Shown: positions 2,709 through 53,643 of the stretch, one piece after another
How the letters are laid out: the number at the start of each line of letters is the position of its first letter
Numbering within the stretch: position 1 is the stretch's first letter
DNA from: an uncultured Jannaschia sp.
GTDB taxonomy: Bacteria > Pseudomonadota > Alphaproteobacteria > Rhodobacterales > Rhodobacteraceae
Reading direction: 5' to 3'
Assembly (NCBI RefSeq): GCF_947503795.1
Contig: NZ_CANNEZ010000002.1
Location: 496,001 to 560,000 of the forward strand
DNA length: 64,000 nucleotides
The notes under the pieces: generated by a model
The model's input: only the letters and a program-made list of their open reading frames with translations
What the model was told of the DNA's origin: nothing
Database searches by the model: none
Translations under genes and position numbers: made by a program

Positions 2709-3341
2709 TCAGGCCCCGGACGGAAGGGCGACCGGCAGCGGGAGGTCACCGAATGCGTCCTCGAACCAGCCGCGCGAGATGCGGGCCGCGATGCCCGTCG
2801 CTGTGCAGAGCGCGTCGTGCAGCTCGGCGTCGAAGGTCCAGAGCCCGGCCGCGATTCCGTCCCGGGGACGGCCCAGCAGTTCCGGCTCCCACCCGAGGCG
2901 GCGGTAGACGCGCGTCATCGGCGCATCGAACACCCCGAGCGCATGGGTCAGGCCGAAGCCGAGGCCGAGCTCGCTCGCCCCGAGGAGGAGTTCGCGCGCC
3001 ATGCCCGGTCCCGCGTCGGGGGCAAGGCAGAACCGCGTGCATTCCCAGATCCGGCCCGAGCGCAGCGGCCCGCCCTCGACCAGATGCGGGAACACGTCGG
3101 CCATCATGTGCGGCCCCGTGGTCGGCAGGAACCGCATCGAGCCCGCATGGGCGCCCCGCGCGTCCTCGGCCACGACATAGAGCGGATCCATCCCATCATA
3201 GGCGTCCGTCTCCCAGCCGAAGGGGTCGACCTGCACCTCCCAGCCCATGCGGTCGCGGAACTGGACGGTGCGGTCGCGGAACATGTCGGCGGCCAGCTCG
3301 GCATGGCGGGGCAGGTCTGCGGCGTAGATGTAGCGGATCAT
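2709..3341 (-). CDS. luxI: Acyl-homoserine-lactone synthase (LuxI family)
   Basis: A 210-aa autoinducer synthase that joins an acyl chain from acyl-ACP (or acyl-CoA) to S-adenosylmethionine to make an N-acyl-homoserine lactone. The residues invariant in the family are present: R24, F28, W34, an acidic pair at E44/D49, R70, F84, E100 and R103 (the RIWECTRF block). It lies 115 bp downstream of the luxR stop on the same strand, and the gap holds repeats that look regulatory (see 3363-3404). The acyl-chain length cannot be predicted from sequence alone. The start ATG follows a GGAGGG Shine-Dalgarno-like stretch. Confidence 0.95.
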   Translation of the reverse strand: MIRYIYAADLPRHAELAADMFRDRTVQFRDRMGWEVQVDPFGWETDAYDGMDPLYVVAEDARGAHAGSMRFLPTTGPHMMADVFPHLVEGGPLRSGRIWECTRFCLAPDAGPGMARELLLGASELGLGFGLTHALGVFDAPMTRVYRRLGWEPELLGRPRDGIAAGLWTFDAELHDALCTATGIAARISRGWFEDAFGDLPLPVALPSGA

Positions 3342-3456: not shown

Positions 3457-4170
3457 TCAGAGGTTGATCAGCCCGCGCGACAGGGCGTTGGCCACCGCAT
3501 GGGTGGTGTTGATTGCCCCGAGCTTGTGGCGCGCACTCTCGATATAGACGCGGAGGGTGTTCTCGGAGATCGACAGCCGCTCGGCGGCCTGCGCCCGGCT
3601 GCGGCCGGCCGCCAGGAGCGTCAGCGTGTCCGCCTCCCGCCGCGAGAGCGCCGGTGCGGGCGTCTGCGGCGCATCTCCGTCGAGAACGAGCGCGCGCTCG
3701 TTCACGTAATGCGCGGCCAGAAGCAGGTCATCGAGATGCGCCCGCGTGAACCTGCCCCAACTGTCATCCGCGACCTTGTGGTTGACGGTGAAGAGCGCGA
3801 ACTGCCCCGACGGTCCCCGGATCGGCAGGCTGAACCCCTGGTTCCCGAGCCCGTGTCCGATGCCCTCGGCCAGAAGCGCGCGGGCCGGACGCCCGGACCA
3901 GTCGAGCCGCTTCCAATCGACGGGCGTGAACCGCCGGAAGCAGGCCAGCACGACCGGATCGATGGTCTGGAAGTTCTGTTCGACATAGGCCGCGACCCAA
4001 TCCGGCGCGTAGGTGAGCGCGGCCCATTGGGCGCCGCCCGACTTGACCGAATGATAGACGAGATGTTCGACATCGTAGGCGTCGCGCAGGTCGAAGACGG
4101 CATCCTGCAGATCGGTCAGGTCGCGGCAGTCACCCAGCCGCTCCAGCACGTCGTCCAGCTTTCGTGCCAT
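3457..4170 (-). CDS. luxR: LuxR-family quorum-sensing transcriptional regulator
   Basis: A 237-aa regulator with an N-terminal autoinducer-binding domain (about residues 15-155) and a C-terminal GerE-type helix-turn-helix (about 172-235), containing the LSRREADTL and ISENTLRVY segments typical of LuxR DNA-binding domains. It should bind the acyl-homoserine lactone made by the LuxI downstream and control target promoters. The ATG at 4170 was chosen because the longer upstream reading has a non-LuxR-like, Arg/Ser-rich extension that is the shadow of the 64-aa gene in the other frame. The gene begins 41 bases inside that upstream gene, which implies coupled translation. Confidence 0.92.
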   Translation of the reverse strand: MARKLDDVLERLGDCRDLTDLQDAVFDLRDAYDVEHLVYHSVKSGGAQWAALTYAPDWVAAYVEQNFQTIDPVVLACFRRFTPVDWKRLDWSGRPARALLAEGIGHGLGNQGFSLPIRGPSGQFALFTVNHKVADDSWGRFTRAHLDDLLLAAHYVNERALVLDGDAPQTPAPALSRREADTLTLLAAGRSRAQAAERLSISENTLRVYIESARHKLGAINTTHAVANALSRGLINL

Positions 4171-4324
4171 CCGGCCTCGCCTCTTCCGCGGGGGAACGCT
4201 GCACAAGCTCGACCGATGCGACGACGATGGCCTCTTCCAGCTGCGAGGCCAGTTCGGGCAACCGGTTGGCATCCGCGAACCCCTTCAGGTCGCCCAGCAC
4301 TTCGATGATCCACTTCTTCGACAT
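4130..4324 (-). CDS. Small conserved protein upstream of luxR
   Basis: A 64-aa protein beginning MSKKWIIEVLGDLKGFA, with an amphipathic helical first half (alternating hydrophobic and charged residues to about residue 45) and a basic, Gly/Ala-rich tail. It has no signal peptide and no domain I can name. From memory, similar short proteins precede luxR-type genes in several roseobacters. Its 3' end overlaps luxR by 41 bases, so ribosomes finishing it could reinitiate on luxR. The Leu- and Ala-rich first half could be a protein-protein interface, but no function is established. A CtrA-type box lies 22 bp before its start. Confidence 0.7.
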   Translation of the reverse strand: MSKKWIIEVLGDLKGFADANRLPELASQLEEAIVVASVELVQRSPAEEARPDGTKAGRRAGAAG

Positions 4325-12846: not shown

Positions 12847-13626
12847 TCAGAGCTGACGCTCAACCATCATCTTCTTGATGTTCGCGATGGCCTTGGCGGG
12901 ATTCAGCCCCTTGGGGCAGGTCTTGGCGCAGTTCATGATCGTGTGGCAGCGGTAGAGCTTGAACGGATCTTCCAGATCGTCCAGCCGCTCGCCTGTCGCC
13001 TCGTCCCGGCTGTCGATGATCCAGCGATAGGCATGGAGAAGTGCGGCCGGCCCGAGATAGCGGTCGCCGTTCCACCAGTAGCTGGGGCAGGCGGTCGAGC
13101 AGGACGCGCACATGATGCACTCGTAAAGACCGTCCAGCTTCTCGCGGTCCTCGATCGACTGGCGCCATTCCTTGGCGGGGGTGTTGGACTTGGTCTCCAG
13201 CCACGGCATGACCGAGGCGTGCTGTGCGTAGAAATGCGTCAGGTCGGGGATCAGGTCCTTGATGACCGGCATGTGCGGCAGCGGATAGATCTTCACGTCG
13301 CCCTTCACGTCGTTGATGCCCCAGGTACAGGCGAGCGTATTCACCCCGTCGATATTCATCGCGCAGGACCCGCAAATCCCCTCGCGGCAGGAGCGGCGGA
13401 AGGTCAGGGTCGGGTCGATCTCGTTCTTGATCTTGATCAGCGCGTCCAGAATCATCGGCCCGCAGGTGTCGAGATCCACCCAATAGGTGTCCAGCCGCGG
13501 GTTCTTCCCGTCCTCGGGGTTCCAGCGATAGATCTGGAACTTGCGCAGGTTGCTCGCGCCCTCGGGCTTCGGCCAGGTCTGGCCGACGGTGATCTTCGAG
13601 TTCTTCGGCAGCGTGAATTGGACCAT
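12847..13626 (-). CDS. sdhB: Succinate dehydrogenase iron-sulfur subunit
   Basis: A 259-aa subunit that passes electrons from SdhA to the quinone site of complex II. All three clusters can be located: the 2Fe-2S motif [10 protein letters not shown] (C80, C85, C88, with C55 upstream), the 4Fe-4S motif [12 protein letters not shown] (about 170-181), and the 3Fe-4S/4Fe-4S ligands in [14 protein letters not shown] (about 231-244). Length is standard. It is unusually far (2.1 kb) from sdhA, with six small genes and a sulfotransferase in between, all on the same strand. Confidence 0.97.
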
Positions 13627-15504: not shown

Positions 15505-15729
15505 TCAGCTCCGCCGCCGGATGCAGGCTTCGAGCGCAGCCTGCTCCTCGGGCGTCAGCTCGACCGAGGCGCCTTCGGTCACGCGGTCGGGCAGCACCGG
15601 CTTGCCGATCTCGGCGAGGCACGCATTCACCACGAGGCGGACGCCATCATCCACCGCGACGGCCGGACCGGACGGGGCAGGCTGGCAAGCCATGAGGGCG
15701 AGCGGGGCGAGAAGAAGGAAATTGCGCAT
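15505..15729 (-). CDS. Small lipoprotein in the sdh operon, two-cysteine type
   Basis: A 74-aa protein with an N-terminal lipoprotein signal (LLLAPLALMAC, Cys 15), a mature part beginning with Gln/Pro/Ser, and cysteines at about 37 (NACLAEIGKP) and 69 (EACIRRR). It overlaps the sdhA stop by one base, so it is directly coupled to sdhA translation. It is the first of five tandem small exported proteins. A role in complex II assembly is conceivable from context only. Confidence 0.72.
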   Translation of the reverse strand: MRNFLLLAPLALMACQPAPSGPAVAVDDGVRLVVNACLAEIGKPVLPDRVTEGASVELTPEEQAALEACIRRRS

Positions 15730-17540
15730 CAGTACACTCGTGCTTTCGGGGCGATTTTCTTGAGGTCGATCCCGCCGTCATTGTGCGACGTCAGCGGGTT
15801 CACATGGACACCGCGATAGCCGAGATCCGACGTTGCCGCGTCTCCCTGGAACCAGACGAGGCTGTGCTTGCGCCAGTTCTCGTCGTCGCGGTCGGGGAAA
15901 TCCTCGTGAGCATGGGCACCGCGGCTTTCCTTGCGGGCCTCGGCCGCGACGACGGTCGCGACGGCGTTGGGCATCAGGTTGGCCAGCTCAAGCGTCTCCA
16001 TCAGGTCGGAGTTCCAGATCAGCGTGTTGTCGGTGACGGCCACGTCCGGCAGCTTGCCCGCGATGTCCTCCATCTTCTCCTTGCCCTGCGCGAGGGTTTC
16101 GGACGTCCGGAAGACGGCGGCGTCCTCCTGCATGGTCTTCTGCATCTCGAGCCGCAGCTCGGCGGTGCCGACCTGTCCGCGCGCGTGGCGCAGCCCATCG
16201 AACCGCGCCAGCGCCATCTCGACCGAGCGCATGTTGGGCGTGGGCACGGCGCTGTCGGCATCGACCACCTCGCCCGCGCGGATGGCAGCGGCGCGTCCGA
16301 AGACCACCAGATCGATCAGGCTGTTCGAGCCGAGGCGGTTCGCACCGTGAACGCTCGCACAGCCCGCCTCGCCCACGGCCATCAGGCCGGGTGCGACGCG
16401 GTCGGGCGCGTCCGGCGTGGGCGCCAGCACCTCGCCCCAGTAATTCGTCGGGATACCGCCCATGTTGTAATGCACCGTCGGCAGAACGGGGATCGGCTCC
16501 TTGGTGACGTCGACGCCCGCGAAGATGCGCGCGCTCTCGGAGATGCCGGGCAGGCGCAGGTGAAGCGTCTCGGGCGGCAGGTGGCTGAGGTTCAGGTGGA
16601 TGTGGTCGCTGTCCTTGCCGACGCCCCGACCCTCGCGGATCTCCATCGTCATGCAGCGCGAGACCACGTCGCGCGAGGCGAGATCCTTGTAGGTGGGCGC
16701 ATAGCGCTCCATGAACCGCTCACCCTCGGAATTCGTGAGGTAGCCGCCCTCGCCGCGCGCCCCTTCGGTAATGAGGCAGCCCGCGCCGTAGATGCCGGTC
16801 GGGTGGAACTGCACGAACTCCATGTCCTGCAGGGGCAGGCCCGCGCGCGCGACCATGCCGCCGCCGTCACCGGTGCAGGTATGGGCGGAGGTGGCCGAGA
16901 AATAGGCCCGGCCGTAGCCGCCGGTCGCCAGCACGGTCATCTTGGCCGAGAACAGGTGCAGCGTGCCGTCGTCGAGCTTCCAGCAGAGCACGCCCTGACA
17001 TTCGCCGTCGTCCGACATGATCAGGTCGATGGCGAAATACTCGATGAAGAACTCGGCCTTCTGCTTGAGGCTTTGTCCATAGAGCGTGTGCAGGATCGCG
17101 TGGCCGGTGCGGTCGGCGGCCGCGCAGGTACGCTGCACGGGCGGGCCCTCGCCGTATTCGGTGGTGTGGCCGCCGAAGGGCCGCTGGTAGATCTTGCCCT
17201 CTTCCGTGCGCGAGAAGGGCACGCCGTAATGCTCCAGCTCGTAGACGGCCTTGGGCGCCTCGCGGGCGAGGTATTCCATCGCGTCCGTGTCGCCCAGCCA
17301 GTCCGATCCCTTGACGGTGTCGTACATGTGCCATTGCCAGCTGTCGGGGCCCATGTTGCCCAAGGACGCGGCGATGCCGCCCTGGGCCGCGACCGTGTGC
17401 GATCGGGTCGGGAAGACCTTCGTGATGCAGGCGGTGCGCAGGCCCTGCTCGGCCATCCCGAGGGTCGCGCGCAGGCCCGCGCCGCCGGCACCGACCACGA
17501 CGACGTCGTATTCGTGGGTCTCGTATTCGTAGGCAGCCAT
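15729..17540 (-). CDS. sdhA: Succinate dehydrogenase flavoprotein subunit
   Basis: A 603-aa catalytic subunit of complex II that oxidises succinate to fumarate. The FAD dinucleotide fold begins [14 protein letters not shown] (about 15), the FAD-linking histidine is in SHTVAAQGG (about 47), and the catalytic segments [15 protein letters not shown] and the C-terminal [10 protein letters not shown] are present. Length is standard. It is preceded by sdhD (11-bp gap) and followed immediately by the small lipoprotein genes. Confidence 0.98.
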
Positions 17541-17550
17541 GTCGGTCTCC

Positions 17551-17922
17551 TTAGAGGGCCAGGCGGATCAGGGCGTAAACGCCGATCAACGCCGCGCCGT
17601 AGCTGAGGCAGGTGGTCGCAACGATCGCGACCTTGCGGGCGGTGCCCGGCACGTAGTCCTCGATCAGGACCTGCACGCCCTTGGCGAAGTGGATCCAGCC
17701 CACGACCAAGGTCAGCAGCGCGACGAGGGCCGGGAACGGGCGGGAGTAATAAGCGACGACCTCCGGCCAGGGTTCGCCCAGCGCGGCGCCGAAGGTGAAC
17801 ACGAAAAGCGGCACGAGTATCACCAGCGCCGCCGAAAGGACGGTCTGGTGCCAGTGATGCGTCGTGCCCGATCCGGCGGAGCCGAGGCCGGAGACACGCT
17901 TGCGGTCAGTCAGGTAAGCCAT
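17551..17922 (-). CDS. sdhD: Succinate dehydrogenase membrane anchor subunit D
   Basis: A 123-aa protein with three hydrophobic segments (about residues 26-48, 62-82 and 98-121). The HHWHQ block before the first helix and [14 protein letters not shown] after the second are the regions that contact the quinone and heme b in SdhD. It anchors SdhAB to the inner membrane together with SdhC, from which it is separated by 9 bp. Confidence 0.92.
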
Positions 17923-17931
17923 GCGCGTGCC

Positions 17932-18315
17932 TCAGAGGATCAGGATGGTGAGAAGGGTCAGCAGGATCGAGCCGCCGATGATACCCCAACCGAGCTTTTC
18001 CGCGGTCTCGACTTCGAGGCCGTAGCCCTGGTCCCAGATCAGGTGCCGGATGCCCGCCAGCGTGTGATACCAGAGCGCCCAGATCGATCCGAGGAACACG
18101 AGCTTGCCGAACCACGAGGTCAGCACCGCGTCCGCGGTCGCGAAGGCTTCCGGGCCGGCGGCGGCGGCCACGAACCACCAGGTGATCAGAAGTCCCCCGA
18201 CGACGAGCGCATTGCCCGTGATCCGCGTCAGGATCGAGGTCATCGACGTCAGCTGCGGCCGGTAGACCTGCAGATGCGGGGAGAGCGGGCGGTTGCCGCG
18301 GTTCACGTCGGCCAT
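17932..18315 (-). CDS. sdhC: Succinate dehydrogenase cytochrome b556 subunit
   Basis: A 127-aa membrane protein. It starts with the family block RPLSPHLQVYRPQLTS and has three hydrophobic segments; the heme b ligand His is in WYHTLAGIRHLIWD (about residues 82-95). It is the first gene of the sdh operon. The start was set at the ATG at 18315 with an AGGAAGGAG sequence just upstream; a longer frame exists but is not SdhC-like. The paired palindromic element at 18434-18462 lies 118 bp upstream. Confidence 0.94.
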   Translation of the reverse strand: MADVNRGNRPLSPHLQVYRPQLTSMTSILTRITGNALVVGGLLITWWFVAAAAGPEAFATADAVLTSWFGKLVFLGSIWALWYHTLAGIRHLIWDQGYGLEVETAEKLGWGIIGGSILLTLLTILIL

Positions 18316-18433
18316 GCGACGCTCCTTCCTGGTCGTTATTCGGTCGTCGTCGGTGACGGTTCTACCGATCTGCGCGGCAGTGTCACGGGGTTGCGGGGTC
18401 GCAGGGGCGGGAATCGCGCCGCCGGGCCACTCC

Positions 18434-18462
18434 GTGATCACGTCAAGATGACCTGTGATCAC
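18434..18462 (-). promoter_or_regulatory. Paired GTGATCAC palindromes upstream of sdhCDAB
   Basis: Two identical 8-bp palindromes GTGATCAC at 18434-18441 and 18455-18462, separated by 13 bp (21 bp centre to centre, two helical turns). The same pair with identical spacing occurs at 23996-24024 before sucC, and both are 116-118 bp from the first start codon. This points to one regulator for both TCA operons. The regulator is not identified. Confidence 0.6.
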
Positions 18463-18527: not shown

Positions 18528-18875
18528 ATGTCGAAATCTCGCGATGAAATCTGGGACGAATGGGGCGACCTCGTGAACATGGCACCGGCCGAAATCGAGG
18601 ACTGGCTCGCGACTGACGAGTCGAAATCGGTCGGCGCCGACAGCGGGGACGGCACGTCGAAGGGTCGCAAATCCGGCCAGCGCATCGTCGAGATCAAGCG
18701 GACCAACAAGGACGACCTGTCCGATGACGACTGGGATCACATGGGCAAGGTCGTCGGCTACATCAAACGCCACGGCGCGCAGGTGCCGGACGAGCCCGAG
18801 GGATCGGACTGGGCCTACTCGCTGAAGAACTGGGGGCACGATCCATTCGGCGAGAATGGTGTCGCCAAGGGCTAG
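18528..18875 (+). CDS. DUF3140 domain protein
   Basis: A 115-aa acidic, soluble protein. The N-terminal half (IWDEWGDLVNMAPAEIEDWL) and the IVEIKRTNKDD segment with DWDHMGKVVGYIKRH match the DUF3140 family, which is sometimes called DNA-binding without evidence known to me. It is divergent from sdhC, so the paired palindrome between them could serve either gene. Its stop codon overlaps that of the convergent DUF4344 gene. Confidence 0.82.
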   Translation: MSKSRDEIWDEWGDLVNMAPAEIEDWLATDESKSVGADSGDGTSKGRKSGQRIVEIKRTNKDDLSDDDWDHMGKVVGYIKRHGAQVPDEPEGSDWAYSLKNWGHDPFGENGVAKG

Positions 18876-23995: not shown

Positions 23996-24024
23996 GTGAT
24001 CACGCCCCGTATGACTGTGATCAC
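23996..24024 (+). promoter_or_regulatory. Paired GTGATCAC palindromes upstream of sucC
   Basis: GTGATCAC at 23996-24003 and 24017-24024, separated by 13 bp, ending 116 bp before the sucC ATG. It has the same sequence, spacing and distance as the element before sdhC (18434-18462). The second copy is extended to the 10-bp palindrome TGTGATCACA. Confidence 0.6.
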
Positions 24025-24140
24025 ATATGGTCGGTTTCTTGCCAGCCGCCCTCGTCTCGGCGGGTTTCCTGTTTATCCCTGCCGTCCCTCATGTCATGGC
24101 CGGATGCGACCCATTCACGACCGCCAAGGGGACGCGACGC

Positions 24141-25334
24141 ATGAATATCCACGAGTACCAGGCCAAGGCGCTTCTGCGCGATTACGGCGCCCCGGTCAGC
24201 GACGGCGTCGCCGTCACCAAGGCCACCGACGCCAAGAACGCCGCCGGCCAGCTCGACGGGCCGCTCTGGGTGGTCAAGGCGCAGATCCATGCGGGCGGCC
24301 GCGGCAAGGGCTCGTTCAAGGAGGCCGAGGCCGGCGACAAGGGCGGCGTGCGACTGGCCAAGTCGGTCGAGGAAGCCGCGGATCACGCCCGCGCCATGCT
24401 GGGCAACACGCTGGTCACCCACCAGACCGGCCCGGCGGGCAAGCAGGTCAACCGCATCTATATCGAGGACGGCTCCGAGATCGCGCGGGAGCTGTATCTC
24501 GCCCTTCTGGTCGACCGCGCCACGAGCCGTATCGGCTTCGTCTGCTCGACCGAGGGCGGCATGGATATCGAGGAGGTCGCCGCCTCGACCCCCGAGAAGA
24601 TCCTGAACTTCACGGTCGATCCGGCCACCGGCTACCAGCCGTTCCATGGCCGCCGTGTGGCGTTCGCGCTGGGCCTCGAGGGCGCGCAGATCAAGCAATG
24701 CGTCGCCCTGATGAGCAAGCTCTATGTCGCCTTCACCGAGAAGGACATGGAGATGCTGGAGATCAACCCGCTCATCGTGACCGACATGGGCGACCTCAAG
24801 GTGCTGGACGCGAAAGTCGGCTTCGACGGGAACGCCGTCTATCGCCACAAGGACATCGCGGAGTTGCGCGACGAGACGGAGGAGGACCCGAAGGAACTCG
24901 CCGCCTCCAAATACGACCTCAACTACATCGCGCTCGATGGTGAGATCGGCTGCATGGTGAACGGCGCGGGCCTCGCCATGGCGACGATGGACATCATCAA
25001 GCTCTACGGCGCGGAGCCGGCGAACTTCCTCGACGTGGGCGGCGGCGCCACCAAGGAGAAGGTGACGGAGGCGTTCAAGATCATCACCTCCGACCCGCAG
25101 GTGAAGGGCATCCTCGTCAACATCTTCGGCGGCATCATGCGCTGCGACGTCATCGCCGAGGGCGTGGTCGCCGCGGTCAAGGAAGTGGGCCTCAAGGTCC
25201 CGCTGGTCGTCCGGCTGGAGGGTACGAATGTCGAAGCGGGCAAGGACATCATCAACAATTCCGGTCTCGACGTGATCGCCGCCGACGACCTGAAGGACGG
25301 CGCCCAGAAGATCGTGAAGGCCGTGAAGGGGTGA
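24141..25334 (+). CDS. sucC: Succinyl-CoA synthetase beta subunit (ADP-forming)
   Basis: A 397-aa ATP-grasp protein that, with SucD, makes succinate and ATP from succinyl-CoA. The start [12 protein letters not shown], the ATP-grasp loop [14 protein letters not shown] (about residues 42-55), MEINPLIV, and the C-terminal GGATKEKV and [10 protein letters not shown] blocks match the family and its standard length. AAGGGG precedes the ATG by about 9 bases. It begins the suc operon, but unusually sucD is 1.4 kb downstream, with three small exported-protein genes in between. Confidence 0.97.
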
Positions 25335-26741: not shown

Positions 26742-27626
26742 ATGGCCATTCTCGTAGACGAACAGACCAAGGTGATCTGCCAAGGCTTCACCGGCTCGCA
26801 GGGCACCTTCCATTCCGAGCAGGCCATCGCCTACGGCACCAAGATGGTCGGTGGCGTCACCCCCGGCAAAGGCGGGCAGACCCATCTGGACCTGCCCGTC
26901 TTCGACAGCTGCCACGAAGCGGTGGCCAGAACGGGCGCGAATGCGTCCGTCATCTACGTCCCGCCGCCCTTCGCCGCGGATTCGATCCTCGAAGCGATCG
27001 ACGCCGAGATCCCGCTGGTGGTCTGCATCACCGAAGGCATCCCGGTGCTCGACATGATGAAGGTCAAGCGCGCGCTCGACGGCTCAAAGACGCGGCTGAT
27101 CGGGCCGAATTGCCCCGGCGTGATCACGCCCGACGCCTGCAAGATCGGCATCATGCCCGGTCATATCCACAAGCGTGGCTCCGTCGGCGTCGTGTCCCGT
27201 TCGGGGACGCTGACCTACGAAGCCGTCAAGCAGACCGCCGATATGGGACTGGGCCAATCCACCGCCGTCGGCATCGGCGGCGATCCGATCAAGGGGACCG
27301 AGCATATCGACGTGCTCGAGATGTTCCTGGCCGATGACGAGACCCAGTCGATCATCATGATCGGCGAGATCGGCGGCACCGCCGAAGAGGAAGCCGCGCA
27401 ATTCCTGGCCGATGAGCGCAAGAAGGGCCGCTGGAAGCCCACCGCCGGGTTCATCGCCGGGCGCACGGCGCCTCCGGGCCGCCGCATGGGCCACGCCGGC
27501 GCCATCGTCGCAGGCGGCAAGGGCGACGCGGAGTCGAAGATCGAAGCGATGAAGGCCGCGGGCATCATCGTGGCCGAAAGCCCCGCCACGCTGGGCGAGG
27601 CCGTCAAGGAGGCGATCGGCGGCTGA
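26742..27626 (+). CDS. sucD: Succinyl-CoA synthetase alpha subunit
   Basis: A 294-aa protein. The CoA-binding Rossmann domain starts [20 protein letters not shown] (residues 8-27), [16 protein letters not shown] follows, and the phosphorylated active-site His is in GHAGAIV (about 250). Pairs with SucC. The TGATGG junction with the next gene overlaps by one base. Confidence 0.97.
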
Positions 27627-28255: not shown

Positions 28256-28725
28256 TCCGCGCCGTTGCTCTTTGCCTCGCGGCCGCCCCCGCGGCCGGTC
28301 AACCCTGCGTCGAACCTGCCTTTGCGAATGCTTTGGCAGCCCTGCAAGCCGACGGATGGACCGTCGCGACCGAACTGACCGACACGCAGGCCGAGGCGCT
28401 CGCATGGAGCCGCGCGATCACCTACATGACAGGCGATGATGGTGGTCTGTCCCCCGAGCAGGTCCTCGATCTCCAGCGTCGCGCGGCCCCTGGCCTGCTG
28501 CGTCGGGTGGATACGGACTCGACGCGGTCGCGCGTCCTGATCCGCGGTGATGATGCCATGACGATTACCGAGACGGTCACGATCCCCGGCCAGATCGAAC
28601 GGCAATGTCGTCTCGCGACCGGGGCATCGTTGGACGACGTCCAGCCCGTCGACACCACCGGGTGGCCGGGCGCGCCCGTCCTTGCCGATTTGACGCTGAC
28701 CTTCCCGCAGGAGACCGACCGATGA
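28252..28725 (+). CDS. Exported protein upstream of sucA
   Basis: A 157-aa protein with a short signal peptide (VALCLAAAPAAG, cleavage near residue 16). One cysteine is in QPCVEPAF right after the signal and another in ERQCRLATG near residue 117. The region between is helical. The start overlaps the DUF805 stop and the stop overlaps the sucA start, both as ATGA. No family recognised. Confidence 0.72.
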   Translation: MIRAVALCLAAAPAAGQPCVEPAFANALAALQADGWTVATELTDTQAEALAWSRAITYMTGDDGGLSPEQVLDLQRRAAPGLLRRVDTDSTRSRVLIRGDDAMTITETVTIPGQIERQCRLATGASLDDVQPVDTTGWPGAPVLADLTLTFPQETDR

Positions 28726-31685
28726 CCGAACAGTCCCCCAATGACGTCTTCCGCTCCACGTCCTTCATGCAGGGGCACAACGCGGAATATCTCGAGCAGA
28801 TGTACGCCCGCTACGCCTCGGATCCGAGCGCCGTGGACGAGACGTGGAAGCAGTTCTTCGCCGCGCTCGAAGATGACGCAGGCGCGGTGCGGGCCGAGGC
28901 GGAAGGCCCGTCCTGGGCGCGCGCCGACTGGCCGCCGATGCCGTCGGGCGAGCTGACGGCGGCGCTGACCGGCGAATGGCCCGCCGATCCCAAGGAGGCG
29001 CAGGCGGCCGGCGACAAGATCCGCGCAAAGGCCGAGGCGACGGGGGCGACCGTCAGCGACGACCAGGTCAAGCGCGCCGTGCTCGACAGCATCCGCGCGC
29101 TGATGATCATCCGGGCCTACCGGATCCGGGGGCATCTGGCCGCCGATCTCGACCCGCTGGGCATGCGCGCCGAGACGCCGCATCCCGAGCTCGATCCCGC
29201 GTCCTACGGCTTCACCGAGGCCGACATGGACCGGCCGATCTTCATCGACAACGTGCTCGGCCTTGAGGTCGCGACGCTGGGCGAGATCATCGCCATCCTG
29301 AAGCGCACCTATTGCGGCACCTTCGCGCTCCAGTACATGCACATCTCCGACCCAGAGCAGTCCTCGTGGCTCAAGGAACGGATCGAGGGCCTGGGCAAGG
29401 AGATCGAGTTCACCCAGAACGGGCGGCGCGCGATCCTCAACAAGCTGGTCGAGGCCGAGGGCTTCGAGAAGTACCTGCACGTCAAGTACATGGGCACCAA
29501 GCGCTTTGGCCTCGACGGCGGCGAGGCGCTGATCCCCGCGATGGAGCAGATCATCAAGCGCGGCGGCCAGCTGGGCCTGTCGGACATCGTCATCGGGATG
29601 CCCCACCGGGGGCGCCTCAGCGTCCTCGCGAACGTGATGGAGAAGCCCTACAAGGCGATCTTCAACGAATTCCAGGGCGGCAGCTTCAAGCCCGAGGACG
29701 TCGATGGCTCGGGCGACGTCAAGTATCACCTCGGCGCGTCCTCGGACCGGGAATTCGACGGCAACGAGGTGCATATCTCGCTGACCGCGAACCCGTCGCA
29801 TCTCGAGGCGGTGAACCCCGTCGTCCTCGGCAAGGTCCGGGCCAAGCAGGACCAGCTCGGCGACAGCGACCGCACCAAGGTGACAGGGCTTCTTCTGCAT
29901 GGCGACGCGGCTTTCGCGGGACAGGGCGTCGTGGCCGAATGCTTCGCGCTCTCTGGCGTGCGGGGTCACAAGACCGGCGGCACGATCCATATCGTCGTCA
30001 ACAACCAGATCGGGTTTACGACCGCGCCGCATTTCTCGCGGTCCTCGCCCTACCCGACCGACAACGCGCTGGTGGTCGAGGCGCCGATCTTCCACGTCAA
30101 CGGCGACGACCCCGAGGCGGTCGTCCATGCCGCCCGTGTGGCCATCGAGTTCCGCCAGAAGTTCCACCGCGACGTGGTGCTCGACATCTTCTGCTACCGC
30201 CGCTTCGGCCATAACGAGGGGGACGAGCCGATGTTCACCAACCCCCTGATGTACAAGCAGATCAAGCAGCAGAAGACGACGCTGACCCTTTATACCGAGC
30301 GGCTGGTCCGCGACGGGCTGATCCCCGAGGGCGAGATCGAGGACATGAAGGCCGCGTTCCAGGATCGCATGGCCGAGGAGTTCGAGGCCGGCAAGGACTA
30401 CAAGCCCAACAAGGCCGACTGGCTGGACGGCCGCTGGTCCCATCTCGATCGCCGCAAGGAGGACGATTACGTCCGTGGCCAGACCGCCATCCCCGAGGAG
30501 ACGCTGGCCGATGTGGGGCGCGCGCTGACGACGGCGCCGGACGACTTCCCGTTGCACAAGACGATCGGGCGGCTGCTCGAGGCGAAGTCAAAGATGTTCG
30601 AGAGCGGCGCGGGATTCGACTGGGCAACCGCTGAAGCGCTGGCCTTCGGATCGCTTCTGACCGAGGGCTACAAGGTTCGGCTCGCCGGGCAGGATTCGAC
30701 GCGGGGCACCTTCAGCCAGCGCCATTCCGGCCTCGTCAACCAGGCCACGGAGGAGCGGTACTATCCGCTCAACCATATCCGCGAGGGTCAGGCGCATTAC
30801 GAGGTGATCGACAGCGCCCTGTCGGAATACGCCGTCCTCGGCTTCGAATACGGCTACAGCCTCGCCGAGCCCAATGCCCTGACCATGTGGGAGGCGCAGT
30901 TCGGCGACTTCGCCAACGGCGCGCAAATCATGTTCGACCAGTTCATTTCGTCGGGCGAGTCGAAGTGGCTGCGGATGTCGGGGCTCGTCTGCCTCCTGCC
31001 CCACGGGTTCGAGGGTCAGGGCCCCGAGCACTCCTCGGCACGGCTCGAACGCTTCCTGCAGATGTGCGGCTCCGACAACTGGATCGTCGCCAATTGCACG
31101 ACGCCCGCCAACTATTTTCACATCCTGCGCCGCCAGCTGCATCGCGACTTCCGCAAGCCGCTGATCCTGATGACGCCCAAATCCCTTCTGCGTCACAAGC
31201 TGGCCGTGTCGAAGACCGAGGAATTCACCACCGGCTCCAGCTTCCACCGCGTGCTCTGGGACGACGCGCAATACGGCAACTCGGACACCGAGCTGGTGCC
31301 GGACGACGAGATCAAGCGCGTCGTCATCTGCTCGGGCAAGGTCTATTTCGACCTGCTGGAGGAGCGGGACGCGCGCGGCATCACCGATGTCTACATCCTG
31401 CGGCTGGAGCAGTTCTATCCGTTCCCCGCGCTCTCGATGGTCAACGAACTCAGCCGCTTCAAGGGCGCCGAGTTCGTCTGGTGCCAGGAGGAGCCGAAGA
31501 ACCAGGGCGGCTGGACCTTTGTGGATCCGAACATCGAATGGGTGCTGACCCGCATCGGCGCCAGCCACACCCGCCCCCGCTATGTCGGGCGCGCCGCCTC
31601 CGCTTCGCCCGCGACGGGCCTCGCGAGCCAACACAAGTCACAACAAGCCGCGCTCGTCGACGAAGCGCTGAGCATGGAAGGTTAA
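28722..31685 (+). CDS. sucA: 2-oxoglutarate dehydrogenase E1 component
   Basis: A 987-aa thiamine-diphosphate enzyme that decarboxylates 2-oxoglutarate and transfers the succinyl group to SucB. The start segment [29 protein letters not shown], the [13 protein letters not shown] block, and the C-terminal EEPKNQGGW motif are typical, and the length matches bacterial SucA (about 930-990 aa). ThDP-binding residues lie in the [15 protein letters not shown] region (about 295). Confidence 0.98.
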
Positions 31686-31689
31686 GCGC

Positions 31690-33225
31690 ATGACGATCGA
31701 CGTGAAGGTCCCCACCCTGGGCGAATCCGTGACCGAGGCCACCGTGGCCACCTGGTTCAAGAAGCCCGGCGATGCCGTCGCCACCGACGAGATGCTCTGC
31801 GAGCTCGAGACCGACAAGGTCACCGTCGAGGTGCCCTCGCCCGCCACGGGCACGCTGGGCGAGATCGTCGCGGCCGAAGGCGAAACCGTGGGTGTCGACG
31901 CGCTGCTCGCGACCATCTCCGAAGGCGCGGGCGCGCCCGCCTCCGACGAGGCCCCCGCCGCCGTGGCCGAGCCGGGATCCTCCGGCGATGCCCCGGCCGA
32001 GGCGTCCGGTAACGCGGGCGGCGAAGCCGTCGATGTCATGGTCCCCGCGCTGGGCGAGAGCGTGACCGAGGCGACGGTGGCGACGTGGTTCAAGGCGGCG
32101 GGCGACGCGGTCGCGCAGGACGAAATGCTGTGCGAACTGGAGACCGACAAGGTCTCAGTCGAGGTGCCCGCCCCCGCCGCGGGCACGCTGGGCGAGATCA
32201 TCGCCAAGGAAGGCGAGACGGTCGCCGCCGGCGGCAAGCTCGCCGTGATCCAGGCCGGGGCCGGTGCCGCCGCGGCCGCCCCGAAGGCCGCCGAAGCACC
32301 CGCCGGGGTCGGTGGTGACAGCGGCGGCCCCAAGGGCGACGTCGAGGATGCGCCCTCGGCCAAGAAGCTGATGGCCGAGAAGGGCCTCTCCTCCGGCGAC
32401 GTGAAGGGCTCGGGCCGCGACGGCCGCGTGATGAAGGAAGACGTGCTGCGCGCGGCCGCCGCGACGGCCCCCGCGCCCGCCGCCCCTGCACAAGCCCCCC
32501 GCGCGCCCGTCTCCGCCGATCAGGCCGACCGCGAGGAGCGGGTCAAGATGACCCGCCTGCGCCAGACCATCGCCAAGCGCCTGAAGGACAGCCAGAACAC
32601 CGCCGCCATGCTGACGACCTATAACGAGGTCGATATGGGCGCGGTCATGGATCTGCGGTCCGAGTACAAGGACCTCTTCCAGAAGAAGCACGGCGTGAAG
32701 CTCGGCTTCATGTCATTCTTCACCAAGGCCTGCGTCCACGCCCTGAACGAGGTCCCCGAGGTCAATGCCGAGATCGACGGCACCGACGTCGTCTATCACC
32801 GCTACGTCAACATGGGCATCGCCGCGGGCACGCCGCAGGGCCTCGTCGTGCCCGTGATCCGCGACGCCGACGCCATGTCCTTTGCCGAGATCGAGAAGGC
32901 CATCGCCGAAAAGGGCGCGGCGGCCCGCGACGGCAAGCTCTCGATGGCCGACATGCAGGGCGGCACGTTCACCATCTCGAACGGCGGCGTCTACGGCTCG
33001 CTGATGTCCTCGCCGATCCTCAACCCGCCGCAATCGGGCATCCTCGGCATGCACAAGATCCAGGACCGGCCCATGGTCGTCGGCGGAGAAATCGTCATCC
33101 GCCCGATGATGTATCTGGCACTCAGCTACGATCACCGCATCGTGGACGGGAAAGGCGCGGTGACGTTCCTCGTGCGGGTGAAAGAGGCGCTCGAGGACCC
33201 GCGGCGGCTCCTGATGGATTTGTGA
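31690..33225 (+). CDS. sucB: Dihydrolipoyl succinyltransferase E2 with two lipoyl domains
   Basis: A 511-aa E2 of the 2-oxoglutarate dehydrogenase complex. Two lipoyl domains (about 1-78 and 114-190) each carry the ETDK lipoylation motif (K43 and K154) and are nearly identical. They are followed by an Ala/Pro-rich linker, a peripheral-subunit-binding domain ([11 protein letters not shown], about 224-260) and the catalytic CoA-acyltransferase domain with DHRIVDGKG near the C-terminus. E. coli SucB has one lipoyl domain and about 405 aa; the two-domain form is common in this clade. Starts 4 bp after sucA. Confidence 0.97.
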
Positions 33226-51988: not shown

Positions 51989-52999
51989 ATGTCCCGCATC
52001 CTGATCACCGGCACCGCCGGCTTCATCGGCTTCCACCTCGCCCGGCTGCTGCTGTCGCAGGGACACGAGGTGCGGGGGTATGACGGCATGACCGACTATT
52101 ACGACGTCGCGCTCAAGCGGCGGCGTCACGCCATGCTGCTCCAGTCCGAACGCTTCGCCGCCACCGAAGGGATGCTGGAGGACCAGGCCGCGCTCGACGC
52201 CGCGATCGATGCCTTCGCACCCGAGTTCATCGTGCATCTCGCGGGTCAGGCGGGCGTCCGCTACAGCCTCGAGGCTCCGCGCGCCTATATCGACGCCAAT
52301 GTCGTCGGCACCTTCAACGTCATGGAGGCCGCGCGACGGCACGCGGTCACCCACCTCCTCATGGCGTCCACGTCGTCGGTCTACGGCGCGAATACCGACA
52401 TGCCGTTCCGCGAGGACCAGAAGGCCGACACGCCGCTGACGATCTATGCGGCGACCAAGAAGGCATCCGAGGCGATGGGCCACGCCTGGGCCCATATCCA
52501 CGACCTGCCGATCACGATGTTCCGGTTCTTCACCGTCTACGGGCCCTGGGGCCGCCCCGACATGGCGCCGATCAAGTTCGCGGAGGCCATCACCGCGGGC
52601 AAGCCCATCGACATCTACAATGGCGGCGAGATGTGGCGGGACTTTACCTATGTCGAAGACCTCGTCCGCGCCATCGCGCTCCTGATCGACGTCCCACCCG
52701 TGCGGCCCACGGATGGTGCCGTGCCCGAGGGCGACAGCCTTTCGCCGGTCGCCCCCTACCGGGTGGTCAACATCGGAAATTCGGACAAGGTGCACCTGAT
52801 GGATTTCATTGCAGCCCTCGAAGACGCGTTGGGTACGAAAGCCATCCGCAACATGATGCCGATGCAGACCGGTGACGTGCCCGCGACTTGGGCCGATGCC
52901 ACCCTACTGCACCGCCTGACCGGATATGCCCCCGAGACCGACTACCGCGAGGGGACGCGACTGTTCGCCGAATGGTTCAAGACGTGGAAGAACCTCTAA
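51989..52999 (+). CDS. UDP-glucuronate 4-epimerase-like NAD-dependent epimerase
   Basis: A 336-aa extended SDR. GTAGFIG (8-14) binds NAD, STSSVYGANTDMPF contains the catalytic Ser, and YAATKKASE gives the YxxxK pair (about residue 152). The order of blocks (GYDGMTDYYDVALKRRR, VHLAGQAGVRYSLE, FFTVYGPWGRPDMA) is that of the LspL/Cap1J UDP-glucuronate 4-epimerases, which make UDP-galacturonate. It probably supplies a uronic acid for surface polysaccharide. Divergent from the DUF2793 gene. Confidence 0.88.
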   Translation: MSRILITGTAGFIGFHLARLLLSQGHEVRGYDGMTDYYDVALKRRRHAMLLQSERFAATEGMLEDQAALDAAIDAFAPEFIVHLAGQAGVRYSLEAPRAYIDANVVGTFNVMEAARRHAVTHLLMASTSSVYGANTDMPFREDQKADTPLTIYAATKKASEAMGHAWAHIHDLPITMFRFFTVYGPWGRPDMAPIKFAEAITAGKPIDIYNGGEMWRDFTYVEDLVRAIALLIDVPPVRPTDGAVPEGDSLSPVAPYRVVNIGNSDKVHLMDFIAALEDALGTKAIRNMMPMQTGDVPATWADATLLHRLTGYAPETDYREGTRLFAEWFKTWKNL

Positions 53000-53643
53000 C
53001 CCGCCAGCAAGCGCAATCCCTGTGTGACGTCCGCCCGCACCGCCAGTCTTAGCCCTGGTTCGTCCCCCGCGCGCAGCGCCGCGACGATCATCCGGTGGTT
53101 CTTGGGCAGTTCGGTCCGGTTCAGCCGCCCGTAGAGCGCGCGCATCGTCGGCCCCATCTGCAACCAGACCGTTTCGACCATGGCCAGCATCGCGGGCGCC
53201 TGGGCCCGCAGATAGAGCGTCCGGTGGAATTCGAGATTGGTCCGGATGTAGCCCGACGCGTCGTGCTTGGCGATCTGCTCGGCGATGGCGGTGTTGATCG
53301 CCTCCATCCGGTCGACCAGCGCCAGATGCGCGCGCGGCAGCGCCCGGATCGCCAGCTCCGGCTCGAGCAGCGAGCGCAGTGCGGCCAGTTCCTCGATCCG
53401 GTCGTTCGACAGGGCGGGCGTCGCGATCCGTCCGCTGGCCGAAAGCGACAACGCCCCCTCTGCCACCAATCGCCGCAGCGCCTCGCGGACCGGGGTCATG
53501 GACAGTCCGTAGTCCTTGCCGATCCCGCGCAGCGTCAGCGCCTGCCCCGGCGGCAGTTCGCCATGCATGATCCGCGTCCGCAGGCTGCGATACAGGCGGT
53601 CATGGGCGGCTCCGGCACCATCGGGAAGCGGGTTCAGCAGCAT
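52996..53643 (-). CDS. GntR family transcriptional regulator (FadR/FCD subtype)
   Basis: A 215-aa regulator with an N-terminal winged helix (about residues 14-75, RGIGKDYGLSMTPVREALRRLVAEG) and a C-terminal FCD domain with the metal-binding His pattern around NLEFHRTLYLRA. It ends convergently with the epimerase gene. Effector and targets are unknown; the TRAP/BKACE operon at 55.6-60.5 kb is one possible target. Confidence 0.9.
   Translation of the reverse strand: MLLNPLPDGAGAAHDRLYRSLRTRIMHGELPPGQALTLRGIGKDYGLSMTPVREALRRLVAEGALSLSASGRIATPALSNDRIEELAALRSLLEPELAIRALPRAHLALVDRMEAINTAIAEQIAKHDASGYIRTNLEFHRTLYLRAQAPAMLAMVETVWLQMGPTMRALYGRLNRTELPKNHRMIVAALRAGDEPGLRLAVRADVTQGLRLLAG

Follow-up and report, generated by a model that had tools for sequence, protein, structure and literature searches.

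Which protein recognizes the paired palindromes that precede the sdh and suc operons in this DNA, and what does their spacing say about the control of these operons? In the window, which here means the whole 64-kb stretch analysed, GTGATCAC-N13-GTGATCAC is read directly from the sequence at 18434-18441 and 18455-18462, and a second GTGATCAC-N13-GTGATCAC at 23996-24003 and 24017-24024. Both pairs have a start-to-start distance of 21 bp and a 13-bp spacer. The sdhC ATG (minus strand, 18315) lies 118 bp from its pair and the sucC ATG (24141) 116 bp from its own, exactly as the sequence-only reading of this locus had placed two palindromes, 13 bp apart, before each gene. The pair before sucC is followed on one strand by sucC, sucD, sucA and a sucB-like ORF, in that order. 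The pairs and the genes around them are:

18434 to 18462, no strand assigned: operator pair GTGATCAC-N13-GTGATCAC before sdhC, putative AkgR sites (from the sequence; kept before sdhC in relatives)
23996 to 24024, no strand assigned: operator pair GTGATCAC-N13-GTGATCAC before sucC, putative AkgR sites (from the sequence; kept before sucC in relatives)
17932 to 18315, minus strand: sdhC (ORF and translation; named from synteny and homology to the sdhC loci of relatives)
17551 to 17922, minus strand: sdhD (Sdh_cyt; Pfam)
15729 to 17540, minus strand: sdhA (Pfam)
12847 to 13626, minus strand: sdhB (Pfam)
18528 to 18875, plus strand: DUF3140 gene, divergent from sdhC and unlikely to explain the operator (Pfam; next to sdhC at 6 of the 46 loci)
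24141 to 25334, plus strand: sucC (Pfam)
26742 to 27626, plus strand: sucD (Pfam)
28605 to 31685, plus strand: sucA, 2-oxoglutarate dehydrogenase E1, start codon uncertain (Pfam)
31690 to 33225, plus strand: sucB-like, 2-oxoglutarate dehydrogenase E2 (ORF; named by eye from the translation)

The window holds five copies of GTGATCAC where 1.05 are expected, a number reached in 1 of 100 shuffles; the fifth copy, at 27120, is single and lies within sucD. Across the whole 3,463,450-bp genome, single GTGATCAC sites number 40, with no excess over the roughly 57 given by the scaled window shuffle rate, and a wider regulon drawn from these single sites was set aside. Pairs with a spacer of 5 to 25 bp (N5-25) occur twice in the 3.46-Mb genome, both times in the window, against about 0.01 expected from 40 randomly placed GTGATCAC, and the reversed control pattern yields no N5-25 pair anywhere in that genome. 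The enrichment in the genome concerns pairs, not single GTGATCAC; frequent random pairs, which the sequence-only reading had counted as damaging to its proposal, are not seen.

AkgR, which we take to be RSP_0981 of Rhodobacter sphaeroides, reportedly activates TCA-cycle genes in that species, the original paper being by Imam, Noguera and Donohue (mBio, 2015). In PMC6365646, GTGATCAC is reported as a motif of AkgR, a GntR-family protein named there as a transcriptional activator. The relevant part of PMC4344238 predicts RSP_0981 (GntR) to regulate RSP_0967-6 (succinyl-CoA synthetase), RSP_0974-6 (sdh), and RSP_0965-62 (2-oxoglutarate dehydrogenase), and names RSP_1663 and NtrC as further predicted regulators of sdh. 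The window resembles this R. sphaeroides regulon in its motif, in the GntR family of the regulator and in the targets (sdh, sucCD, and 2-oxoglutarate dehydrogenase), insofar as these excerpts describe it. The site is very probably of a known kind and marks AkgR rather than an unknown regulon. The earlier proposals, that no described TCA regulator has such a site and that the pair may define a new regulon, are therefore corrected: GTGATCAC is a reported AkgR motif (PMC6365646) and the same operons were already predicted targets of AkgR/RSP_0981 (PMC4344238). A new regulon was also rejected on the synteny in an R. sphaeroides-like genome (G094).

The host genome encodes 11 FCD-domain proteins, one of them in the window:

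52996 to 53643, minus strand: akgR ortholog, GntR + FCD regulator of 215 aa, the likely binding protein (Pfam; R. sphaeroides-like synteny; family-wide presence)

G094 is R. sphaeroides-like in that its PufL is 100% identical to the R. sphaeroides query. In that genome, about 0.75 kb separates the end of sdhB from the ortholog of the window protein, which is 76% identical, and both sucC and sdhC are preceded by N13 pairs, so that ortholog and pairs at both operons occur together there as in the window. The excerpted coordinates in PMC4344238 place RSP_0773 near 2.515 Mb and RSP_1173 near 2.941 Mb; interpolation by hand puts RSP_0981 near 2.737 Mb, and the G094 ortholog is found at about 2.7397-2.7403 Mb. 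From the position after sdhB and the match to the interpolated coordinate, 52996-53643 on the minus strand is taken as the akgR ortholog, the label RSP_0981 resting on position. In contrast to G094, with akgR just after sdhB, the window has 34.5 kb between akgR and the sdh pair, and akgR is not beside sdhB. This synteny is not general, because of 80 named akgR loci, a good many of them shorter than 20 kb, just 5 contain sdhB. Moreover, no GntR-FCD gene was found near the pairs among the ORFs of at least 120 aa in 20 surrounding regions, each 16-20 kb long; akgR is further away in most of these genomes.

The nearest named relative of the G094 protein is from Cereibacter ovatus (94% identical). 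An alignment of 118 orthologs displays an FCD domain with conserved residues, from which no ligand could be deduced. By sequence, the window protein has its nearest relative of solved structure in McbR (PDB 4p9f, E 5.9e-23), which we take to be the E. coli protein and to have targets different from those of AkgR. RSP_1663, presumably CceR, is a LacI-family protein and thus from a different family than AkgR. It is predicted for sdh and mdh in R. sphaeroides in the excerpt of PMC4344238. According to the corresponding part of PMC6365646, the GntR-like PS417_07240 of Pseudomonas simiae (deoxyribonate oxidation) has the palindrome GTGATCAC upstream of its own gene, and AkgR is 32% identical to it. 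That system has a single palindrome and serves a different pathway, in contrast to the AkgR pairs.

With high confidence, we read each pair as a double operator for AkgR (GntR/FCD), on which two dimers would sit on one face of the DNA and activate sdh and suc from upstream; binding, cooperativity, and activation are all predictions of this model. One AkgR dimer would occupy each TGTGATCACA-like palindrome. The palindromes are 21 bp apart, that is, two helical turns, and therefore the two dimers would share one face and might bind cooperatively. From this upstream position they would contact RNA polymerase in a class-I-like manner, thereby activating the sdh and suc promoters. Activation of this type is suggested by the pair probably keeping its helical phase to the putative -35 element, which lies 47 bp from the pair for both window operons and 58, 69, or 80 bp from it before sdhC in relatives.

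The geometry was examined in a set of sdhC and sucC promoters in which sequences that agree throughout their last 150 bp were treated as one, and from which homologs matching after residue 4, covering fewer than 60 residues, or having less than 250 bp upstream were left out. Among the 101 promoters with an exact pair (46 sdhC, 55 sucC), 82 have a 13-bp spacer, 18 a 12-bp spacer, and one an 11-bp spacer, counts that are conditional in that nearly all pair-bearing promoters came from searches requiring an exact pair; a 14-bp spacer was allowed and is absent from these 101. The promoters in the set lacking an exact pair are L108 and L210 for sdhC and L143-L147 for sucC. When aligned, the 82 N13 pairs read TTT-GTGATCAC-A...T-GTGATCAC-AAA, an overall symmetry that extends beyond both palindromes.

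Downstream of the pair, GTGAC is present at 40-85 bp in 40 of the 46 sdhC promoters, the exceptions being L045, L046, L048, L078, L169, and L179; shuffled 40-90 bp windows give a mean of 2.1 of 46 and a maximum of 6 (200 trials). A TATTNA-like block follows GTGAC(T/A) at 16 bp in the alignment of these 40 promoters and, because of it, the two elements are most simply read as a putative -35 and -10 of sdhC. The corresponding elements in the window are:

18381 to 18386, minus strand: putative -35 of sdhC, GTGACA, 47 bp from the pair edge (GTGAC in 40 of 46 sdhC promoters)
18359 to 18364, minus strand: putative -10 of sdhC, TAGAAC, 16 bp after the -35 (alignment of 40 promoters)
24072 to 24077, plus strand: putative -35 of sucC, TTTATC, 47 bp from the pair edge, weak (T-rich block at 47-49 in the 55 sucC promoters)

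The distance from GTGAC to the pair falls at 47-50 bp (nine sdhC promoters), 57-60 bp (29), 69 bp (one), and 80 bp (one); the sdh pair of the window sits nearer to the promoter than that of G094 by one helical turn (47 vs 58 bp). The distance shifts in steps of about 10-11 bp, and these shifts amount to some five separate changes (the genus of the window, G177, G030, G085, and G002). Hence, a phase rule, by which the pair moves relative to the predicted promoter in steps of about one helical turn, is likely rather than proven. The Rayleigh value is 0.88 at 10.5 bp, which is not proof of phase since 10.0 and 11.0 bp give nearly the same (0.86 and 0.88) and most promoters inherit one distance. 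The phase of GTGAC suggests that activation by two AkgR dimers would be face-dependent. In the searched literature, outside which the original AkgR paper lay, no description of the paired geometry or its phase was found. As a separate observation, sucC promoters carry A/T-rich blocks about every 10 bp after the pair (10-13, 20-23, 30-32, 40-42, and 47-49), and these might bend the DNA.

The position of the pair relative to the promoter also bears on the sign of regulation and on the choice of target. GntR-family proteins are often repressors, and 65 bp separate the pair from the start codon of DUF3140, so that AkgR, or another protein, could repress sdh and suc or could mainly control the divergent DUF3140. 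We regard this as quite unlikely. The pair is located upstream of the putative -35 and not across the core promoter, and the excerpt of PMC6365646 calls AkgR a transcriptional activator. Moreover, DUF3140 adjoins sdhC in 6 of the 46 exact-pair sdhC loci, all from the host genus, while a probable phasing of the pair with the predicted sdhC promoter is seen across genera; an action on DUF3140 is therefore unlikely to explain why the site is kept. Thus the suggestion in the sequence-only reading that the sdh copy could act on either gene finds little support as regards DUF3140, which was rejected as a target on grounds of conservation, though the site may still have some effect on it. In two genomes of the host genus (G060 and G178), DUF3140 lies about 1.3 kb from sdhC.

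At least one exact N5-25 pair is present in 287 of 292 Rhodobacterales genomes, all Rhodobacteraceae, and the reversed control in one (G097), numbers to which no p-values are attached since the genomes are related to each other. In a class-wide set of 385 genomes, pairs occur in 5 of 5 genomes of the host family and in 5 of 380 from other families; the reversed control is found in one genome (G462), five times. Within the loci examined, which represent a minority of the 287 genomes, 73 of 76 N11-14 pairs are within 220 bp before sdhC or sucC (20-kb regions and one G058 pair are left out of this count), and the other three (L183, L184, and L196) have spacers of 13, 12, and 12 bp. Among 30 loci that came from an open N5-25 search, 27 are before sdhC or sucC, with spacers of 11-13 bp, and three elsewhere (10, 10, and 19 bp). 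The picture in the sequence-only reading of an operator pair on one DNA face, common to sdh and suc and kept at orthologous promoters, is supported.

Closer to the window, the sucC pair is found in 10 of 10 other genomes of the host genus and an exact sdhC pair in 6 of 10. The sdhC pair of G267 has one mismatch, and that of G080 (L284), GTGACCAC...GTGGTCAC, has two changes, which leave the pair symmetrical as a whole. G060 (L283) and G178 (L285) have no sdhC pair and still carry AkgR and the sucC pair. Absence in close relatives, which would have spoken against the proposal, is therefore not seen at sucC, whereas at sdhC retention is incomplete (six exact, two degraded, two none). Degraded sdhC pairs also occur in two other genera (L210, one mismatch; L108, two mismatches). 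Among the pairs in other families, those of G403 (L148) and G535 (L149), from one genus, are beside TonB-receptor-like ORFs (named by eye), and the L149 pair also adjoins a GntR-FCD gene whose product shares 29% identity with AkgR; a distant AkgR relative may use the same site there. The pairs of G590 and G692 are within long ORFs and look like chance. The fifth such genome is G764.

The distribution of AkgR itself largely follows that of the pairs. AkgR matches at E<=1e-70 in 287 of the 292 genomes (exceptions G023, G141, G231, G110, and G226) and at E<=1e-50 in 289 (without G023, G141, and G231), G110 and G226 having a diverged copy (49 and 47% identical). The five genomes without an exact pair are G110, G226, G141, G231, and G230. 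In the first four, the sucC promoter holds nothing resembling a pair, its best match having 5 or 6 mismatches of 16 (shuffled, 3 to 7). The sdhC promoters of G110, G226, and G231 likewise give 5-6 mismatches at best, and that of G141 gives 3, possibly a remnant. AkgR is present in G230, whose sucC promoter keeps a pair with one mismatch. The exception is G023, whose assembly of about 80 contigs contains two exact pairs and gives no match to AkgR at 1e-50.

A second GntR-FCD protein (G000 C1:2103275-2103898; L103 in G094) is likewise near family-wide. It matches strongly (E<=1e-78) in 288 of the 292 genomes and is present in G023; in G110, G226, G141, and G231, all of them pair-less, it is weak or absent. 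Because this pattern is nearly the same as that of AkgR, co-occurrence is supporting evidence only and does not single out AkgR. These data raise the possibility that the pairs are bound by a different, undescribed regulator such as this protein, which, unlike AkgR, is found in G023 where pairs are present. This, too, we consider very unlikely. The C1:2103275 ortholog is at 469 kb in G094, far from the RSP_0981 position, and for that reason the protein was rejected as RSP_0981 despite its near-perfect co-occurrence. Moreover, GTGATCAC is absent at 5 of 5 loci around its orthologs, whereas akgR often has one, and the published motif (PMC6365646) and predicted targets (PMC4344238), as excerpted, are those of AkgR/RSP_0981. 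When the 11 FCD proteins were compared by reciprocal best hits with three small genomes, in which 20 of 22 FCD regions were covered (six of the eight from G209), three candidates were left, the third being C1:221950. Finally, a chance or non-regulatory origin of the pairs, with which the lack of over-representation of single GTGATCAC would agree, has practically no probability left: it is already refuted by conservation (pairs in 287 of 292 genomes, the reversed control in one) and sits badly with two pairs against the 0.01 expected.

If AkgR is the protein that binds both pairs, the promoter of its own gene is of interest. Of 39 akgR loci, 21 carry an exact GTGATCAC between -130 and +30 relative to the aligned start; all 21 are among the 30 loci outside the host genus (none of 9 within it), and they include the diverged copies of G110 and G226. 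The site is absent from this interval in G094 and G230, and the window akgR has neither an exact nor a one-mismatch GTGATCAC there, so that the window genome and G094 are alike in this respect. Among 80 named akgR loci (the closest relatives of the G094 protein), 16 carry GTGATCAC, against 0.7 expected. By eye, a TTGAC-like element is seen shortly upstream of many of these sites, which for this reason probably overlap the core promoter, as self-repression would predict. The single palindrome suggests that, in many relatives, AkgR would repress its own gene; the host genus is without that site.

Taken further, the geometry raises the possibility of a two-dimer AkgR module on TCA operons, whose distance would evolve in whole helical turns only (47, 58, 69, and 80 bp). 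The pair, centred about 97-130 bp upstream of the predicted transcription start, would contact RNA polymerase, a single site would serve akgR self-repression, and geometry and phase would be family-wide for sdh and suc. For this extended model as a whole, we see the chances as evenly balanced. More broadly, the pairs offer a near family-wide prediction at the level of sequence, in which one regulator would act on two operons through one fixed operator geometry and so set TCA-cycle capacity.

Two minor observations concern neighbouring genes. In a genome of another genus (G273, L141), akgR and a DUF3140 homolog are 67 bp apart, which connects DUF3140 with AkgR a second time. In the window, a LuxI-type autoinducer synthase (2709-3341, minus strand) is located beside a LuxR-type receptor (3457-4272, minus strand), together a quorum-sensing pair according to Pfam.
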